Part shown: positions 40,859 through 58,020 of the stretch, in pieces
Layout: each line of letters opens with the position of its first letter
Position numbering within the stretch: position 1 is the first letter of the stretch
Assembly: GCA_002150815.3 (NCBI GenBank)
Contig: NDFF03000043.1
Span: 558,001 to 622,000 of the forward strand
DNA from: Grammothele lineata
Taxonomy: Eukaryota > Basidiomycota > Agaricomycetes > Polyporales > Polyporaceae
Direction: 5' to 3'
DNA length: 64,000 nt
Translations under genes and position numbers: made by a program
Notes under the pieces: model-generated
What the model saw: only the letters and a program-made list of their open reading frames with translations
The model's database searches: none
What the model was told of the DNA's origin: nothing

Positions 40859-40882
40859 GCCGATTGACCGAGGTTCGATTTT
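40859..40882 (+). repeat. Left terminal inverted repeat of the 3.0-kb element
   Basis: Perfect inverted match over 24 bases to 43843-43866. Followed by three tandem GATTTTT units. Confidence 0.8.
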
Positions 40883-43842: not shown

Positions 43843-43866
43843 AAAATCGAACCTCGGTCAATCGGC
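43843..43866 (-). repeat. Right terminal inverted repeat of the 3.0-kb element
   Basis: Reverse complement of 40859-40882, identical over 24 bases. GCATAG follows 8 bases further out. Confidence 0.8.
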
Positions 43867-46282: not shown

Positions 46283-46288
46283 CGTCAG

Positions 46289-46350
46289 TACTGCAAGCAA
46301 GACGGGTCAGCTCGGCTGCAGGACGGGTCAGCTTCAAGAAAGGCAACTGG
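46289..46350 (+). repeat. Left terminal inverted repeat of the 11.7-kb element
   Basis: Perfect 24-bp inverted match (46289-46312) with 57991-58014, then a looser match to about 60 bp. Two copies of GACGGGTCAGCT 21 bases apart. Preceded directly by CGTCAG. Confidence 0.88.
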
Positions 46351-47383
46351 GGATGATTGACGCTGAATGTCGCACATGGACCCCGGTCACTGCACACAAA
46401 TATTCAGAGAGGGAGGACAATATTGGGCTACCCACTGGGAACCGTGCGCAACGGCGCGAGCACACTGCTCCGACCCCCACGGGATCATCCATCATTGCTC
46501 ACCGTACCCCTTGCGACCTGTCCTGTCCAGCACTTTCGAGCTTGGAGGGATATGTTTTCTCTTTAGTTGCCTATCTCTGTCCTACTATCTTACCTGCCAC
46601 TCATGATATATGTATGTTATGTCTGTTCGGTTGTGCTCCACCCGAGTATCATCAACAACCCTCGCCTCGCTCCCAGCCCGGGTGACCTCAGCACGCGCAT
46701 TGAGGCCCTTGAGAGCAAGCTCAAGTTCCTGCCCAAGCATCTGTATGAGATGAATGCGTAGAAGTGGAGCTGGCAGTCAAATTCTTCGGTCTTCCCTAGG
46801 TATGTTTGGCTCTGTGACAGTCTGTGTCAACCTTGTGTGGCGGCAACTCAGCTCTAACTATGTGCATACCACAGAGAAAACACATCGTCCTCCTTGATGC
46901 ACTCATCAACCAAGCCATGCTGGATAGTCCTGTATAGTGCCCAACACCAAGTGTGCACTCAAGATGTATTCGTATTCCGCTGTCTTCGCGCTCGGCGTTC
47001 AAGTTCATCCTTGGCTACTCCACTATATCACGTGAGTGCCCAGGCACAGCTAGTCTCCAATCATGAGCGACTTACTATCCCAACGCCAGGTTGTTTATCC
47101 TATCAAATGGGTGTGCTCGAGGTTGTTAGCAAACGTCTGGCCGACTCGAATCTAAATCCGGGTTCCGTGAGCCAATCAAATTGCGAGAGCGTTCGTGCGT
47201 TTCGTGCGTTTTGCCGTTGCGGCTCTCCCTTCTATCCCATACCATCCTCCTCGTCCCTACCAAGCTCCCCTAATCTCTTCCCTGTGGCATTCCTCATTCC
47301 ACTCATTTGAACGTTCCCCTCTTTTACCTGCTATTTCTTGATTAATCTTCACCTCAGTCTAATCGTTCTTCTAATCGTCTCTA
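46351..47383. other. Left non-coding part of the 11.7-kb element
   Basis: No clear gene. A 64-codon frame at 46567-46761 has a hydrophobic start and a coiled-coil-like end (RIEALESKLKFLPKHLYEMN) and may be a remnant exon. Pyrimidine-rich sequence at 47,220-47,380 looks like the promoter of the alpha-kinase gene. Confidence 0.4.
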
Positions 47384-50300
47384 ATGGCTTCTCAAGGCCT
47401 CCTCCCTCACGGTGCTCTCTTCACTTCACAAATCCCTCACAACTGTCAACGATGCAATTCCCCTGGCCCGCTCACTTATGCCAAGTCGGAGGGTGGAGGA
47501 TCTGGAAAGCACCTGTGTACCGACTGTGTCCGGTATTATGCTGAAAAGCGCCAAAAGTTTCTCGGAGCAGGTATGTTATTATCGTTCTTGTTCACTTGTG
47601 CATATCGCAGTAATATTCTGTTGTGCTGGTAGGAGTCGAAGTTTCGTACACCAGTCAGGCTCAGGCTGGAGGACAGCAGCTTCAATCTCGGCAAATTCAA
47701 GACAACTCGACGGCAGCATATCGTGCAGAGATAGGGCATAATGTTGCAGCTGCTCAGCGAGGCAGTGAGTTGCAATTCTCCGGTTAACCATGTGTGTCTT
47801 TTGTAATGTTTTCTAGCCTCTACTGCAGCAATAGTTCCCGTTGGCGGCGGTCGCTCGGCCTTCTCGCTTGGCCCAGCGTCAAATGATCGCGTACCGCCGA
47901 ACAGATTCACTTCAATGGCACCACCTCCTATCCCACCGTCGATCTTCCCCCCACATATTCTTGGCCAAGGTGCTTCTGCATCAGGTCCTCTCATCTATGT
48001 TCCTGGCTCCAAGTTACTCCAAGACCTGTGCGCTGAAACGCAGAACGTCATGCTTCAGAAGCAGGGCACCAAGACCGGCTACTCAAACATTCACAATGAG
48101 TACCTCAAGGTTCGGGAGACTCTCCAGCATCAAGCATACTACGTGCATACCGAAATAGTCATCATCAAGGCCCGCATGATGGTGGAGGATATTCGTGGCT
48201 CTCGTTCAGCTTATTCGCCTGTGGCGGTACGTTTGCTCTACTCTCCTTGGTTCTCCCCCCTCCCCTCTATCTCACGTCTCTATTCAACATACTTTAGAAT
48301 GTCCTTGAATCCATTCCTGCTATTCCTGTGCGCATCGGTGCTAGGGAGCTGAAAGTTATGGTCTTCTGTGCGCTCATCAAGCCGTACATGAATTGGTCAC
48401 AGAACTATCCTCTGCCTAACTTTGCTGAGTGTTCTCTTCGCATGAAGTCTGGAGTTGAGCTGCTCCCGCTTGATCCAGACGTCGGCTGCATCGCTCAACA
48501 ATTCATCAAGGAAAAAAAAGGTCCGGGTGGCAAGGGTCCAGTGATTCAGGTCAAAAAGTCGGAACCTCCCTTGGAGATATGGCTTCAAATTCCTCGTAGA
48601 CACTTCGATGCTGTCCTGGATCACTTGGAACGAGTTGAGCCCACCGGCAACACCCTCGTGCGTTTCTTTCACCATTTGTGAACACGTTTCAGCACCCGCT
48701 TACACAACTTGCGACTTACCCACCGGGTCCCAATATCATAAAGGACGAGGTTCTAGGTTCAGTCCCTCATCCTGCTCACCCAATCAATGCTGTTGGGGTC
48801 ACCAAACAGCTGAAGATCGACATCAAGAGGCCAGAGGATAAGCGCAACGTTGTACAGGTATGCATCAGTGCACGTGGTTTTAAGTCTGTGACGCCTAGAC
48901 TCACATATACACGCCTATCTGCACGCTCCATGGATATCATCCCCCTAGCGCACAGAGGCTCTTCAGTGTGCAAACCGAGTCAACATAGCTGCAGTTGAGC
49001 CGAAGCCCCCAAAACCTTCAGCTTCCCCTTCTTTTCCCTCTTCGCCTCGATCCCATCAGTCGCTCTCGTATGGCCGCGAAGAGTCTCAGAACATCCAAGC
49101 TCCAGATGTGCCACCGCCGGTTTCGCGTAAACGCGCTGCCACTGTGAGCCTAACATTTTTTCAATCCGCTAAAGTTCGCTCTTAGAATGTGTTGGTTGTC
49201 CACATGTCTAGGAGCGCTCACCTGGGAAACGGCTGGACTCTGACGTCGCTACCAAGCGCGCACGTACTCATGCCGAACCCCAGCAACTACCATCGATATC
49301 CCAGCAGGCCATCCTCACCGCTCTCAGTCGCCAGCGGGCTCCGTCTAAGCCTGCCGTTACAGCATTGTGTGAGTATAGACAGACCTTGGCTTTTACATAG
49401 TACTGACGCCGTGGCGAACTGACTGACAGTGAATTGCAAGATTGTCAATGTCCAGGTTCAGGTTTGCCCACAAGTTACCTTTGAGGACCTTGTTGTCAGA
49501 GGTAAGTTCACCGTTTTTAGTTACGTGTCTACCGAGTAGTGTCTACCAGGGTTAAGATCGCGCGTCGCTTGCAAGTGCCGGACAGTGGAACTCTAATGTG
49601 CCATTTACCACCACGGCAGTCACGTACACCCCGACTGTCAAGCCAATGAAGGGTGCATCCAAGGTCGCTTTCTTTGCTACGTGCAACCCCTCGCTTCCAG
49701 GGTTTGAGTCGATGACCTTGGTCTTGAAGCAAGCGTTCAGACCTAGCAGCCAAGCCACATCAACGTCTTCGCTTCGCCCCCAGTATCAGTTGCTCGAAAG
49801 CGGCTCACAGGTGTCATTTTTGACTCGTGAGATCCTCTGCCTGCAATGGGCCTCCGCTCTGATGCGTCTAGTATATGACTTCGTTGACGAACGAGAGCGC
49901 GCGTCCGATTTGATGCACTCAGACTCGGAGCCACTCTCTATCCCTCAGCTGCGCTTCGTCAAATGTGCGCTAGCTTTAGAAGCCGATATTACGGGGTCCG
50001 AACGTCAAGTGTTCTTATTGGAGGAGCGGATAGACAAGGAAACGCACGGGAAGTGGTGCAAGTATATCAATAACAACTCACCTCACCCAATCAAGGACAA
50101 CCTCACTACTCCGGAACGTCGGCACACTGCGGAATTTCTTGTCTTCTGCCAGCATGTTCAGTATCTCAAAACAATGGGTCTCGCTTTCGTCTCTGACTTC
50201 CAAGGTGTGTCATACAGGACGTCAGACGACTCAGATCGATGTGTCCTCACGCGAATTTCAGGTGGCAATACCCTGCTCTCTGACCCCCAGATCATGACAG

Positions 50301-50764
50301 ATGAGTAAGTAGCATTTTCCTGGATCACCCGTTTCTTCTAGTTGGCGGCCAGGTTTTGGCTGAAACGACATGTCTGTAGGAAAGTCGGGGACGTCTTCAG
50401 CACAGGAAACCTCTCTTCAGCTATCGTGAAGTTTCCTGTTGCGCATACGTGTTCAAAGTTCTGCAAGCACTATGGGATTGAGGGTGTGTGGGTATTAGAG
50501 CTGCTGAAGCCACTTGGCGATACCAAGGAGCAGGGATCGCAACGCAGTGCTATCTCAGGTTTGCAATTGAGACATCCATGATGCCTCCCCTTGTAACTTG
50601 TAACGCCAGACATCTGATATGTCTTTCTAGGAGCCCCAGCTGCAGCTGCACCGAACAATGAGCCGCCACCTGCAGGAGCAAGGGATGTTTCACGAAGCGC
50701 AACTAAGGACAAGGAGCGACTTCTCATGCTGGCAAATGTAGCAGAGACGAATAGACTTGCGTGA
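47384..50764 (+). CDS. Alpha-type (atypical) protein kinase with N-terminal zinc-ribbon-like segment
   Basis: About 12 exons give roughly 880 residues, ATG 47384 to TGA 50762-50764, all joins in frame where checked. The N-terminus has two CxxC pairs (CQRC and CTDC, residues about 20-50), probably a zinc ribbon. A long middle region is Ser/Pro-rich. The C-terminal quarter matches alpha-kinases: FVKCALALEADITGSERQVF, EERIDKETHGKWCKYINNN, the catalytic FVSDFQG (the QG of the family's LQG loop), LLSDPQI, FSTGNL, and the zinc-coordinating HTCSKFCK. The kinase would phosphorylate Ser or Thr in an unknown target. Alpha-kinases are numerous in agaricomycete genomes. Its place inside a transposon suggests cargo or a helper gene. 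Confidence 0.85.
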
Positions 50765-51624
50765 CCTGCCGCCGGCGGTTGCTGGTTACTGTCACGCTGT
50801 CAGTCCCTTCTGTAGTAAGTATACCGGTTCTTCTCGTCTCGACTTATTGCTGATCCTCTCATAACTGCTCTCCGATCTGGCATTTTAGGATACTCAGCAC
50901 AGCCTGCACTTACGTCCTTCGAACTATATTCCACATTGACATTTCACACACTCCTCCTTTGTTCCCTACGCATACTAGTTGCATCTCAGCTTTAGTATCG
51001 CAGCATGTTACTGTGCATGTAGCTATCCCTAGTACCTATCCTTCTATTACTTACACCCCAAGATACGAACGACTCCTAGTCCTACTAGTACTCAGCCGCC
51101 GTTTACTGGTTACCCCTTTTTTCTTAATATCACCCTTCATGTTAGGATGCCACGTTTAATGATTACTAGGAAGCTTTTGTGCACCCATTTCTCAAGCTCT
51201 ATGGGGGCGGCCTCTACAATCTGCATGGAAGTTTGAGTTGAAGCTCCGTAGCGGCCGCTGTGAGCGCCTATATATGGAGCGTCTTGGACTCGCCAAAAAC
51301 GATGGTCTATACGCTGCTACCGTGGACAGAGTTACAAAGTTTTGACTTCAAAAGGTCCACTACTACCATACACACAATGTATACCCTGTGCCAACCCTTA
51401 GTAATCTTCCCCAAGAACTCTGTACCTACTTTCCGTGCGTTCAACGCCTGGGCGCTTATTCGCTCCCAAACGCGAGTGGACGTACTCCGTCTGTGTCTGT
51501 CTTATCAAATCTATCTCTCCCCTGCCTGCCCCCACATACCACCTCTCTATATGCCGTTGGCTTTGTCAAGACATTCTACTGCTTCCATCGCTTGTGCTTC
51601 TGTACTCGAACTCCTCTACTTGTG
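50765..51624. other. Region between alpha-kinase and integrase genes
   Basis: The 3' UTR of the alpha-kinase gene and the promoter of the integrase-core gene. The promoter holds TATATA (51,270) and the block repeated at 57.6-57.8 kb. Confidence 0.5.
51270..51430 (+). repeat. Promoter-proximal repeat, copy A
   Basis: Contains AGAGTTACAAAGTTT (51328) and, exactly 67 bases later, CCCTTAGTAATC (51395). Both words, and the spacing, recur in the same orientation at 57663 and 57730. It lies about 200-350 bases before the integrase ATG, so it is probably promoter and leader sequence. Confidence 0.72.
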
Positions 51625-53712
51625 ATGGCAAACACTTCTTCGCACCTGCATAATCACCCAACTCCGGCCTTCTCTGACTCCGAGTCCGCTGAAAATGACC
51701 AGCCAAGGCGCGGAAATCAGCATAAGCCATTGCGTGCGTATGAAATTGGCTCAGACTAAGGCTTGCGTTATTGATTTCAACATTCAACCAGCCCCCGATT
51801 CCATTCTGCGTCCCCTTGTCAAACGGTATTATGCTTTTGGTCAGACTGATCGTGCAATCGCCGAGTCTGTCCAGAAGAATATTGATACTCAAGCCTACGG
51901 CATCAGGTGAGTCTCACACCAGTTCAAAACTGAGTTTGCTTGTGTGTAACAGCAGATATTTTCTCTCCTTGCTCTGTTCCGTACCACCCTTGGTGCTGGT
52001 GCGCATCAGCGAATCTTCTGTCAAGCGCCTTCGAAAGAAGTGGGATCTACTCAAAACACGTGCTCAGAATCACACAGTTGAGAGCATCCATATATACTGT
52101 CTGGAGGTCAAGAAGCGTTATCCCGACCGAGGAGTGGACAATCTTCAGAAGGCTTTACGGACTCAGTGGAATGTACGGGCTAGTCGGTGAGTCCATACGG
52201 AAATCAGAGGTACCTCCGGGTATCTCGACTGGCCAAGATGTAGTATGTGCAATGCTGATACTCATTGTTATGTTCATGTATCATTTGAAACCTTGGCAAT
52301 GACAGCGCTGTCATTACTGAGTGGTTGAAGACGATGGAGCCCGACGCAATGAAGGAACGTCGCTACAATCCTCGCAAACGATACCGTTTCTGGTGTGCCG
52401 GTGTTAACGATCTCTGGGCCTTCGATCAGCATGACAAGTGGGGCCCTCGATTTGGACTATGGCTTCATCTCGGCACCGAACCAATGTCTGGAGCGATCAA
52501 ATGGCTGAAGATCTGGTGGACGAACTCGAATCCCCGGTTGATTACTAGTTTCTATCTCGCAGCTGGGCGTGCTATAGCGGGTAGGTCCCGATATTACCTT
52601 CTAGCAGTCCAAGGGCTCACCAGTTGTTGAAATTGTTGCCCCCCTTCGGTGTGAATTGTCAATCTAGCCGTCCCTCTGATCACACAAAGTGATCCTGGTA
52701 GCGAAAACTTCGGCATTGCAAATGCACACACATTCATTCGCCATCGACTAGACCCCTCGCTCGAGGGTACTCTCCAACACCGGTGGATGCGAAAGAAGAT
52801 GAACATCAAGCCCGAGATCATGTGGTCACTTTTACGACGCGATTGGACCGGCTTTGAGGCAACGCTTCAGTTTGGAGTTGATCAGGGCTGGTATGATGTT
52901 AGCAATGCATTGCATTGGTGCGTAAATTATTAGCGTCTAGCTTCTCTTATAATTCAGTTTCTGTCACAGTCTTGTATTCCGGTGGTTGGCAATTCCTTGG
53001 CTCCAGACTGAACTGGATATATGGGCAAACCAGTTTAATTCAACCAAGCGACGGGCAAGCAAGAACAAAGTGCTACCGCAGGGTGTTCCCCTGCTGATAG
53101 CTGAGGACCCGAAGGCCTATGGCGTTGAGGATTTCAAGGTGTGCAGCCATAACTCAATCTTAAAACAATTGTTAACCTCTTCATGCTCATTTCCTGTGAT
53201 GCGTTCCACAGATTGGAGTGCCTGCTAGCCTCTTCGATGAAGCAGAGGAGCAGTGGGCACCTCCAGGTCATCCTGTATTCGAGCTGGTACCAGAGTTGTT
53301 CGCCCATCGTATCCAAGCCATCTACAATACGCTTGGGTCTCCTGAAGTCAACTTTGACTCCTTTTGGAATGTTTACCTGACGATCCTTGAACACTTCCTG
53401 CTTATCCCTCATGATAACGACGCCCTTGCAAATGTTATATCCACCAGCCTTGATGATGCAACGGCAATCTCGGAAGAGAGAGTTCCCCTTCTGCCTGGGC
53501 TTCGTCCGCTGCAGCATGTACCCCAAACTGGACAAGTACCGTCAAACGTACATATATTTCAGGCCAGAAGTAGTAGTCAGGGAGATGGAAATGTGGAGGT
53601 CAATGAGGTAGAAGGAGCGGGCGGTGAGGAACTTGACGGGCAGGATACAGTCTACGCTGCATTTACCTCCGATGAGGAGGAGCTAGATACTGAGGACCCT
53701 GGTTTATTGTAA
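51625..53712 (+). CDS. Integrase-core (retroviral-type DDE) protein, candidate transposase
   Basis: About seven exons, roughly 530 residues. The first 45 residues are polar. A helical region follows (KRLRKKWDLL and RGVDNLQKALRTQWNV) that may bind DNA as a helix-turn-helix. The core begins YRFWCAGVNDLWAFDQHDKW with the first catalytic Asp, continues FGLWLHLGTEPMSGAIKWLK, then QSDPGSENFGIANAHTF with the second Asp. A Glu 41 residues later (KPEIMW) is the best candidate for the third. IPWLQTELDIW and NKVLPQGVP close the domain. This resembles agaricomycete proteins annotated with an integrase core domain. It would cut and join the element ends. The stop (53710-53712) overlaps the end of the opposite frame by 9 bases. 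Confidence 0.85.
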
Positions 53713-54345
53713 CTCAATACACTCGCTCGAGTAACCAAGATCATCACCCGTCACCCTGGTCATGATGTCGGCCTGAACTGAAAAAAGGACCAAGCTAACA
53801 AGGCCTAGCAGCTTACTGAGAGAGCCCGGCGGGATCAAGCCACCAAAGCCGCCGAGTTGAGAGTCGAGCGCATGTGCGCAGTGTGAGGCGGATGGGGTAA
53901 AAATGCTCGCAGCCTTGAGGCAGAGGAGAAAGAAGAAGAGAGATACATAACTCACTTTCGCGTATGAGCACACACAGCAGACAGCGTTCACTACAAGGAA
54001 CGAAAAGAATGGAATAGAATTGTTTGTTACATGTCTCATCGTGCAAATGCTACATACTGCCCCACTGCTATTCGAGGCACCGTTGCCGGCCGCCTTGTCC
54101 TTGCCCTGTGCCGTCTCGTTGCCCGACGTGGTCGAGACGAAGGTCGAGAAGTGTTTCGAGGACGGCACGCGCGGGCGACCGGCCGCGCCCGCACCCGAGG
54201 GCGCCGCTCCTGGTCCCGCACCCGCGGTTGCAGCAGCCGCGCCCTGCGACGGTGCGGCGGCCGTCATGGTCGTGGTCTGTGAGGCCGTGTTCGAGTTGGC
54301 GAGGAAGCGGGACTGGAAGTGGTTCGAGAAGTAGCCGGCCATCAT
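53704..54345 (-). CDS. Unassigned open frame inside the element
   Basis: A single open frame of 213 codons from ATG 54345. The first half is GC-rich and starts MMAGYFSNHFQSRFLANS, then becomes Ala/Gly/Thr-rich; the second half is AT-richer with a hydrophobic stretch (SIPFFSFLVVNAVCCVCSY). The two halves differ in base composition, and a GTATGT at about 54,030 followed by an acceptor suggests that the true gene may be spliced. It could be the first exon of a captured host gene. I do not recognise it. Confidence 0.35.
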   Translation of the reverse strand: MMAGYFSNHFQSRFLANSNTASQTTTMTAAAPSQGAAAATAGAGPGAAPSGAGAAGRPRVPSSKHFSTFVSTTSGNETAQGKDKAAGNGASNSSGAVCSICTMRHVTNNSIPFFSFLVVNAVCCVCSYAKVSYVSLFFFLLCLKAASIFTPSASHCAHALDSQLGGFGGLIPPGSLSKLLGLVSLVLFSVQADIMTRVTGDDLGYSSECIELQ

Positions 54346-54897
54346 GCGGGCGAGAACGTGCGGGGACGGAGGCAGGTGCGGCGCTGGGGACACGGGACTG
54401 GGGCGGGCTTGGGGCGGGCTTGGGGCGGGTCTGATGGAGGTGAAAGGCTTCACTAGAAAGCAAATAAAAAGCAGAGACGGTGTCGGCGTTGGCAAGGAGG
54501 GTGCGGTGCGAGGAAGAGCGAGGAGGAGAGGCGTGAGATGGGCGTCGTCGGTCACGCTCAGTCGAGAGCTCAGGCAAATCTCGCGCCCGCACGGCCGCGG
54601 CAGACGGACTGGCAATCACCGCGACGGCCCACAGCGTCAAGTTGGCCTCATCTTTGTCCTCCCGACTTCCTCCATGGTTCGTTATTCTCTCGCTAGCTTT
54701 CGCTTGTCCTCCCTTGGCGCTGTGGAAGCAACCCCTCGCAAATAAGTTTTAAAAGATCGCAGCAGCGCCGGTGACTCGGGGAGGGTGACAGGAGCAGGGA
54801 TGAGGTGAAAGCTAACCCAGTAGTTCGAACATTCTGTACAGTGTAGCATTACAGTGTAGCATCGCAGCGTAATAAAGGAAAGTAGACTATGCTTCAA

Positions 54898-57467
54898 CTA
54901 AACCCCAAGAATGAGCATCTTGTCGGCATTCCGACGTTTCCTTTTAACCGGGGGAACAATCTGATCTGGAGCAACACAATCACTCAGGCTGCTCACAACC
55001 ACATTGCTGCCCAATGCTTCCCCTTCTAAGTCACCATGTCCATTTCCTGCTTCCTGCCTTCTCCGCTTATTCCCCCCGACACCACCGAGATTAGAACGTG
55101 GCCTCCATCCACCAGCGCCACTAGCATTCTTTGATGCTGCATGACTACTGCCAGACTTATTGCGATTATCCTTCTTCATCTGCGCATTTGCACGCTGACG
55201 ATTGCGGAACCACTCATCAAGGAGAGGGCTCTCGTCACATACAACAAGCCTGTGTCAGGAATCAGCTCGAGATCCGTTGATGCAAGACTGATAATGATAA
55301 CTCATACTGAAAGTTCTCTTTTCCAACTGGCCCAGCACGCACAACACGACGACCTATGGCGCAATATTCCAAGGGGCCAACAGCAACCCGCCGAGTCTCG
55401 ATGATCCTAACCAAAGTTTTCTCGTTCCGCACTGCGTTAGGTGCGAGTGAGAAAATCTCAGTGTCAGCGGCATCCGTTGGCACTGAAGGTACTCCATGGG
55501 GCGAAGGCGGAACCAGGCAATGAGGGAAAACGGGTGTTACCGTCCAAATGACCTTTTGAGACTTCTTAACCTCACATGTGTAGAGAAGAGTGTCGAGAAC
55601 GGCTGCGCGGCAGTCCTTTTCCGATAGGAAAAGAGTGGAGTCGGTGTATGCGTTGGCGCAAAGATACGTATGCGGTGTGCATGAGTCACTAATCACGCCT
55701 ATTTGGTCCATTAAGCAGTGGAACAGCATCGTGGGGCTAGAGCTAGGTAAGGCACATACTGAGATCTCTGTATGCTGCAGTTAAGGGATCGATATCTCCG
55801 CTGGAAGAGCCTAGAGCCTCAGGTGATGGATTGAGAAGCGCCCAGTCAGCACCGAAGATGAGGCGTCCAAGCTTGAAACGTTTGGCGGGTGACTCAAGAG
55901 CAGCTCGAATGAATGTTGGCTCGAAAATGTCGCATAGGCCGCAGGCTTCGTCACGAACAAGTACTGTATCCGTTTGAGAGTAGTGTTCTATGATCGTCTG
56001 GGGGGAATGAGAAGCGAAGACGAATGATGAGCGACAGCAAATATACACCGGCCAGTATAATGAGAGAAGTTGAAACGCACCGAGTACGCATTTTGCAGGC
56101 GTTTCATCCGAGATGGAACAGACACTCGCTGCTTCCCATGCACATAAAGCCGGTGAGAAAATTTGAGGCGGTGCGCATCCGTGGGTGCAAGGATAAAGCC
56201 AACATATGCAGGGCGCACGAATTCTCTGTTGGTTCAAAGTTCAGTGACATTCAGGATCTGGGAGAATGGAGTAAATGTGCTCACTGGAGCTCAGAATACG
56301 TTCGATCGGCGAATGTCCAGAAAGCCTCGCAAAAGCGAGCAAGTCGCGACGGCACACCAAACAGTTCACCTTCTGTGAGCCAAGGTGGCAAACCTAAATC
56401 GTGTGGTTCATACTCAGTCTCTCCAGCAAGAGTACAACAGTGGGCACGTACCTGACATGAAGAACAGTTCCGCAACTGTGTATGTGCCTACACCACCAAA
56501 AACTCGGCCGTAGTCCGCACGGATAGCGGTAGCTGCAAGTTGGCGACGTTTATGAAGGCCCTTTTTGAAGATAGTGCGGACGAGTATGCCAACCTCGGAG
56601 AGGAAGACGGCGTAGTCATCATGGACATCCAGATGCACGACAGGCGGCAACGATTGCTTAGTGACAAACCAGTGCGGCTGACATGGAAGGAATGAGGACT
56701 GCGAAAGGCGGGCTCCACGGAAATGTGCGCACCGTAAACACGTTGTCTGCAGTAAGAATTGCGAGCACATATTCCCCTAGGTCGAGCGCCATCCCAACTC
56801 GAAATCCACGACGCTGGGAGTAGTTCACGTATGAGGGTTTGTGGAGGTGTCTGTGCCAGGGGAAGGAGCGAGAACGTAAACGCACATTGTTTATACAAGT
56901 AACTTGAGCAATCTCTTCGTCCCATTGCGCCCGTGTATAAGGCTGGGCCATAGAATGCGTTAGGAGTTGGACCTGACAATAGGCAGCAGTAGAGTTAGAT
57001 AAAGAGATCACAAATGAGAGGGATAGACATAGGCGTTGATTGAAGGCCTCAAAGTAACCGTTTGGGACTCAAATATGGAGTTGGGGATAAAAGAGAGAGA
57101 AGAGCGTCATAGATTATCGTACCTGGAGACTCATCTCGCCAAAATTAAGAACAATCGTCCTGGGCGTGTGTTCTACCCCACACAACCGAAATCCATCCAA
57201 ACTCTGGAGGGGCTCCTGGTCTTGATGGGGCCAAACATCCTGCTGACTCTTGCGGGGCCCTCGCTTCACTGATGACGAAGGCAGAAGCTGATGGACTAAA
57301 CCCTGCGCTAGACGAGATTGCGGGTCCTTCTTCTTGGCTGCTTCAATGGCAGGTTTCGTCCCATCGGTCCAGATGCTAGAGAGAACTAGAGGTACCGAGT
57401 CTTTGACAGCCAAGAACCAAAGCCAGATAGTGAGATAGCATGCATAAACTTCGCTGATTTCGGGCAT
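54898..57467 (-). CDS. Unknown multi-exon protein of the 11.7-kb element
   Basis: ATG 57467 (MPEISEVYACYLTIW) to a stop at 54898, in about eight exons with frame kept at most joins checked. Recognisable stretches: THSMAQPYTRAQWDEEIAQV, HLHKPSYVNYSQRRGFRVGM, HLDVHDDYAVFLSEVGILVR, RLARFCEAFWTFADRTYSEL, EFVRPAYVGFILAPTDAHRL, LVRDEACGLCDIFEPTFIRA and EEVKKSQKVIWTV-like sequence. The C-terminus is a basic tail with PPVKRKRR, a likely nuclear localisation signal. I know no domain for it. It runs convergent to the integrase gene and fills the right third of the element, so it may be an accessory protein for transposition or a DNA-binding factor. Confidence 0.6.
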
Positions 57468-57990
57468 GAGCGCTGGATAGAGCAAGAAAACAAAGAAGGG
57501 GGTAGACGAGGGCAATCGAGTAGATGAACACTGGTATAGGTACGACGCGCGACCCGCGACGCGACGCGACGCGTCCGCGACGCGGTCATTGACGCCGGCC
57601 TAACAATCACGTGGACACTGAGCCTTGCCTTTGGACGCGCCCTGGAGCTCGCTATTGTGGCCAGAGTTACAAAGTTTCGGTGCATTGCGCATACATTGCT
57701 CTTTATATACAGCTTACTACCTTCCGTTACCCTTAGTAATCTCCCCCAAGGTCTCTAAGGCCGATTGAGCCACCCTACCATCTCTCTCGACGAGTGGGCG
57801 CCTGCGAGCAATCCAAGCGCCCAACGGGTACAGCCTTACCCTCATCCTCTACCGCGGGCTTTGCGCCCCGACTGCCCATCTTTTCCTGCGTAAACGTATA
57901 GCCCTCTTGGGGTGTCAGAGGCCCCATCAGGAAAACCGCGTGGTGAGCTGACATAAACCTTCCTTTTCTGAAGCTGACCCGTCCCGCAGA
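57468..57990. other. Right non-coding part of the 11.7-kb element
   Basis: The promoter of the minus-strand unknown gene, a GACGCGACGCG simple repeat (about 57,544-57,586) and the second copy of the promoter-proximal repeat. No gene. Confidence 0.5.
57610..57800 (+). repeat. Promoter-proximal repeat, copy B
   Basis: Direct, diverged copy of 51,270-51,430: AGAGTTACAAAGTTT at 57663 and CCCTTAGTAATC at 57730, again exactly 67 bases apart, plus TATATA between them. No coding sequence follows, so it may be the leftover 5' end of a second integrase gene. Confidence 0.68.
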
Positions 57991-58014
57991 AGCTGACCCG
58001 TCTTGCTTGCAGTA
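57955..58014 (-). repeat. Right terminal inverted repeat of the 11.7-kb element
   Basis: Inverted partner of 46289-46350, perfect over the outer 24 bases. CGTCAG follows at 58015-58020. Confidence 0.88.
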
Positions 58015-58020
58015 CGTCAG

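Follow-up and report, generated by a model that had tools for sequence, protein, structure and literature searches.

IS3EU elements have TA..TA termini, usually 6-bp target-site duplications and a DDE transposase without an HHCC motif; the description in PMC10045372 unites them with GingerRoot and places the first catalytic aspartate 100–300 residues from the N terminus. They have been reported in the polypore genus Ganoderma (PMC8955403). According to Kojima 2025 (PMC12730594), all families of TET-carrying IS3EU, which occur in rusts (Pucciniales) and Tuber indicum, hold both a transposase and an alpha-kinase gene. Here we analysed a 64-kb window of the Grammothele lineata genome (64,000 nucleotides of contig NDFF03000043.1; positions below are those of the window). 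An 11,726-bp transposon within it (46289–58014) is very probably an apparently intact IS3EU/GingerRoot DNA transposon of a polypore-like mushroom; the element is real and probably autonomous. A preliminary description of this DNA had proposed a transposon that carries an alpha-kinase and an integrase-core protein, and knew of no described element combining these genes. The latter statement fails, since the Kojima account of transposase plus alpha-kinase means that the combination is already in print.

The proposed transposon, with its ends, paired inner motifs and duplicated CGTCAG, was confirmed (Table 1). Its tips read TACTG..CAGTA, and the terminal repeat proper is a perfect 24 bp starting at 46289 and 58014. 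The exact inverted match extends to 25 nucleotides (46288–46312 and 57991–58015) because the last G and first C of the duplication also pair. The GACGGGTCAGCT motif is present exactly twice at each end, with a spacing of 21 bp at the left and 19 bp at the right, and does not occur elsewhere in the window. Both copies of the duplication are exact; as a chance control, random 6-mers taken from this window at the element's spacing were identical in 44 of 200,000 draws. Exact inverted matches of 16 nucleotides or more number three in the window, and two of them are the element ends.

Table 1. Features of the element, in window coordinates.
Feature	Position	Strand	Basis
Left target-site duplication, CGTCAG	46283–46288	.	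direct reading
Left terminal inverted repeat, 24 bp perfect (TACTGCAAGCAAGACGGGTCAGCT), 55 bp at 89% identity; GACGGGTCAGCT at 46301–46312 and 46322–46333	46289–46343	+	
Alpha-kinase gene, hand-spliced, 12 exons, 869 amino acids	47384–50764	+	PF02816, spliced model
IS3EU-type DDE transposase gene, hand-spliced, 7 exons, 531 amino acids, triad D174/D234/E275	51625–53712	+	PF24764, spliced model
Captured host DNA: 5' flank and coding start of an eIF4E-family gene on contig C52	54071–54707	-	sequence match
Gene 3, hand-spliced, 8 exons, 688 amino acids, five polypore homologues found	54898–57467	-	spliced model and homologue search
Right terminal inverted repeat; motifs at 57972–57983 and 57991–58002 (reverse strand)	57962–58014	-	
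Right target-site duplication, CGTCAG	58015–58020	.	direct reading

Further copies of the ends, which the preliminary description had suggested looking for, were sought across the 41.8 Mb of the assembly (252 contigs). When up to three mismatches were allowed, the 24-base tip was found at four places, all with none: two belong to this element and two to contig C1. A backwards control pattern gave one place in the same scan, and a 72-base end query returned the same four places. The second copy (C1, 854560–857238; 2,679 bp) has both tips identical to the 24-mer and lies between two identical GCCCCG hexamers, a 6-bp duplication distinct from that of the larger element. Perfect duplications in two unrelated places show that these ends have moved. 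The two copies share 79 bp on the left at 92% identity and 106 bp on the right at 99%; no similarity was detected in the interior. Six of the seven C1 frames of at least 90 amino acids were scanned against Pfam (L008:2594–2896 being left out) and none gave a match at E≤0.01; the C1 copy seems to be non-autonomous. Seven other places match parts of its interior at 67–78% over ∼200–230 bp, and a stretch of ∼226 bp (L008 ∼2147–2372) matches four other contigs at 76–78%.

The predicted integrase-core protein proved to be an integrase-type DDE transposase by its match to PF24764. Its catalytic triad is complete, the first aspartate is residue 174, and no HHCC motif was found in it. The TA..TA termini (TACTG..CAGTA in both copies) and the 6-bp duplications (two of two copies) likewise agree with the IS3EU/GingerRoot description in PMC10045372, from which this element differs in being 11.7 kb long and in carrying host DNA and two additional long genes. 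The nearest transposase relatives are consistent with the agaricomycete host assumed in the preliminary description. An RNase H-type DDE core is shared with the transposases of IS21 (IstA), Tn7-like elements (TnsB) and IS481 and with retroviral integrases, and in Foldseek the core modelled for a close relative, P0001, resembled IstA, TnsB and retroviral integrases. In contrast to these proteins, the transposase described here is eukaryotic and intron-bearing and has other N- and C-terminal parts, making the likeness one of fold or weak sequence only. The fold list named no IS3EU, IS3 or IS481 structure, an absence that is uninformative.

A retroviral-type integrase core could also point to another integrase-bearing class, such as Ginger1/2, a Polinton-like element or a retrotransposon remnant. 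The hallmark of Polintons is a self-encoded DNA polymerase B, and that of Starships a tyrosine recombinase captain gene. The Pfam scans took in part of the 76 open frames listed for the window; among those scanned, no polymerase or reverse transcriptase family was found and no tyrosine recombinase, and we rejected a retrotransposon and, provisionally, a Polinton and a Starship. Polintons also give 6-bp duplications (PMC10045372), but the inverted repeat here spans only ∼55 bp. According to the same source Ginger1 combines an HHCC motif with a 4-bp duplication and Ginger1/2 duplications measure 4–5 bp; the 6-bp duplications and missing HHCC thus led to the rejection of Ginger1/2 as well. Membership in Ginger1/2, the Polinton-like elements or the retrotransposons is highly improbable.

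The claim that the element contains apparently intact multi-exon genes was borne out: manual splicing gave three coding frames free of stops, with 27 exons in total and 24 introns that are all GT..AG. The acceptor before 48958 was picked so as to keep the frame.

The presence of an alpha-kinase inside the element was also confirmed (PF02816, E=1.4e-12; 48.5 bits against a cut-off of 21.3). The protein has an N-terminal CxxC..CxxC segment and a C-terminal alpha-kinase domain. Its relatives in the PDB are weak (best E=4e-4) and comprise 1ia9, eEF2K and MHCK A. The end of the domain can be aligned with eEF2 kinase and with 1ia9, a TRP-channel kinase, and the alignment takes in the D-x-Q-G and DP motifs as well as the final H-C-C cluster; we presume that these residues, together with lysine 593, have the roles usual for the family. 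An exon-by-exon family search, which may miss others, found this to be the sole alpha-kinase in the genome. Literature searches on alpha-kinases and IS3EU or transposons turned up PMC12730594 and PMC4469406, the latter treating alpha-kinases in another setting, their high expansion in rusts. The kinase is better viewed as a recurrent IS3EU partner gene than as arbitrary cargo.

As described in PMC12730594, TET-carrying IS3EU resemble this element in their 6-bp duplications (a size given for the rust families), TA-starting ends and pairing of transposase with alpha-kinase. In those families a TET/JBP gene lies between transposase and kinase, whereas the two are adjacent here. Pfam revealed no TET/JBP family in any of the three genes or the other scanned frames, nor in the relatives of gene 3; a TET/JBP identity of gene 3 was rejected on these grounds, and gene 3 is an extra gene relative to the published families. 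The host here is an agaricomycete, and section 18 of PMC12730594 lists no agaricomycete TET-carrying IS3EU. What is already known is thus the transposase and alpha-kinase pairing in other fungi; what differs is the same-strand arrangement of the two genes, the lack of a detected TET/JBP gene, and gene 3.

Gene 3 (57467–54898, reverse strand) and the captured eIF4E-family fragment were both absent from the preliminary description. Relatives of gene 3 were found in Daedaleopsis, Pilatotrama (two), Polyporus and Trametes at 34–44% identity, in a search limited to the 7996 candidates sharing most words, so that the list may be short. Two of these genera are classified in Polyporales, and the remaining ones presumably belong there too. 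Four of the five relatives start with MPEY, comparable with the MPE start chosen for gene 3. One of the Pilatotrama proteins, P0122 (1172 amino acids), is annotated as a single protein consisting of gene 3 followed by this transposase. Whether P0122 is a true fusion or was joined by annotation, the two genes are neighbours in Pilatotrama; they are head to tail there and convergent in this element. Neither gene 3 nor four of its five relatives had a Pfam match at E≤1, the sole match among the relatives being the integrase part of P0122, and gene 3 had no match to PDB sequences at E≤10. NCBIfam gave one chance-level match (E=0.23) for the relative P0121, whose AlphaFold model was unusable (mean pLDDT 36.3, 5 sequences). 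A heavily decayed relic of gene 3 on contig C112 is 79% identical over 1.04 kb. C>T or G>A changes make up 142 of the 196 differences there and the opposite changes 24; of the element's 52 CpG sites, 3 are kept. This relic suggests that old copies lose CpG sites, which makes a silencing pressure plausible.

Host gene fragments inside a DNA transposon are the mark of Pack-type transposons such as Pack-MULEs. An apparently captured segment of ∼640 bp sits between the transposase gene and gene 3. Aligned with C52, it gives 579 identities and 67 gaps in 703 columns, equal to 82%, or 91% of ungapped columns. The C52 part of the match consists of a start codon, the following 93 codons and the preceding flank, and an IF4E domain (E=1.5e-32) lies on the same strand 261 bp beyond the end of the match; as we read the frames, the start region and the domain probably belong to one gene. 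Transfer from host to transposon is the simpler direction because the C52 gene runs on into the conserved domain and the element copy does not. Inclusion of the upstream flank suggests that DNA, rather than RNA, was copied. The captured segment keeps its start codon and is open, giving a possible chimeric frame (53704–54345, reverse strand) of a host N terminus and other transposon sequence. A nearby 228-bp piece (53721–53948) matches contigs C231 and C142 at 73–77%. Gene-capturing Helitrons have been described in Pleurotus (PMC4289320). Both Helitrons and Pack-MULEs belong to different superfamilies, and the element described here in addition keeps a full transposase gene.

Several observations weigh against an intact, autonomous IS3EU/GingerRoot element. 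The superfamily assignment is a fit to termini, duplications and core features rather than the outcome of a transposase tree, the gene models are hand-made with predicted splicing, and Foldseek TM-scores of the whole model, by query length, were low (0.10–0.28 in the 50 rows listed). The termini are TACTG, as opposed to TAYGG in the rust TET-carrying IS3EU of PMC12730594, and kinase and transposase, which have opposite orientations in the TET-carrying elements described there, are both on the forward strand here. A homologue search for the kinase scored 7994 candidates and recovered no relative, probably owing to a candidate list crowded with low-complexity words; relatives may well exist. An empty site joined through a single CGTCAG, which the preliminary description had proposed to look for, was not found in this assembly, where the matches were the two flanks alone. 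No second copy bearing coding genes turned up in this genome, and the CpG observed/expected ratio is 0.85 in the element versus 1.04–1.13 in the rest of the window, a mild deficit.

The last two points, together with the decay of the C112 sequence, would also be expected of a transposon relic with dead genes. Such a relic is difficult to reconcile with three long genes open across 27 exons, catalytic residues that are kept, an exact duplication and perfect tips, and we consider it quite unlikely. The kinase and gene 3 might instead be host genes that became trapped as passengers between a pair of IS3EU ends, with the transposase alone belonging to the element. The orientation unlike that of published IS3EU, the missing coding sibling with the same gene set and the DNA shared with a host eIF4E-family gene are in keeping with this idea. 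It is at odds with the alpha-kinase gene that, in the wording of PMC12730594, all TET-carrying IS3EU hold, and with the single annotated protein P0122; moreover, no other such kinase was found in the genome, and gene 3 only as the decayed C112 relative. Passenger genes are therefore an unlikely explanation, and we retain the reading as an apparently intact transposon with its own accessory genes.

In such an element the transposase would bind the paired GACGGGTCAGCT motifs in each end, cut at the TA termini and insert with a 6-bp stagger, and it could mobilise the short ends-only C1 copy in trans. The alpha-kinase and gene 3 would lie outside the catalytic machinery and most likely be regulatory. 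TET genes in the related elements have been proposed to relieve silencing (PMC12730594), and by analogy the kinase may act by phosphorylating either the transposase itself or a host factor for repair or silencing; that it answers a silencing pressure is our hypothesis. A bolder and quite tentative possibility is that mushroom IS3EU form a distinct multi-gene lineage, in which the kinase and a transposon-specific gene 3 make up an accessory module that acts on host chromatin, repair or the transposase via phosphorylation and replaces the TET/JBP de-silencing proposed for rusts, and whose members carry promoters and exons of the host from place to place.

Transposons do not usually keep a kinase gene. 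If IS3EU elements carry many of the fungal alpha-kinases, expansions of the rust type would reflect transposon biology, not host signalling. The window offers an agaricomycete case that seems intact: its ends are defined, its gene 3 is tied to the transposase in a second species, and there are signs that host-gene DNA was captured. A role of the kinase in transposition thereby becomes testable.

Seven further PF24764 loci were found in the genome by a search that missed the intron-split gene of the window and so may miss others. None matched the element transposase at E≤0.01. Among the matches listed, relatives of the transposase matched five of six other PF24764 regions at ∼24–38% over parts, and the C119 region had no match to them. 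Scanning the seven loci for TA..TA ends with a 6-bp duplication yielded a single candidate, a weak one on C2, and long inverted repeats alone were unconvincing; we take these loci for other lineages. In viral contigs, 49 pattern matches included no true relative.

The window holds one other exact 24-bp inverted repeat, at 40859–40882 and 43843–43866 (GCCGATTGACCGAGGTTCGATTTT read at the left), ∼3 kb apart. It extends to ∼44 bp at 84%, has tips without a clear duplication and perhaps marks a non-autonomous element. Elsewhere, on contigs C126 and C118 (L046–L049), no inverted repeats were recognised at the match borders of another element with a distant PF24764 core, which is present in three copies of 3.1–3.8 kb that are 96–99% identical.
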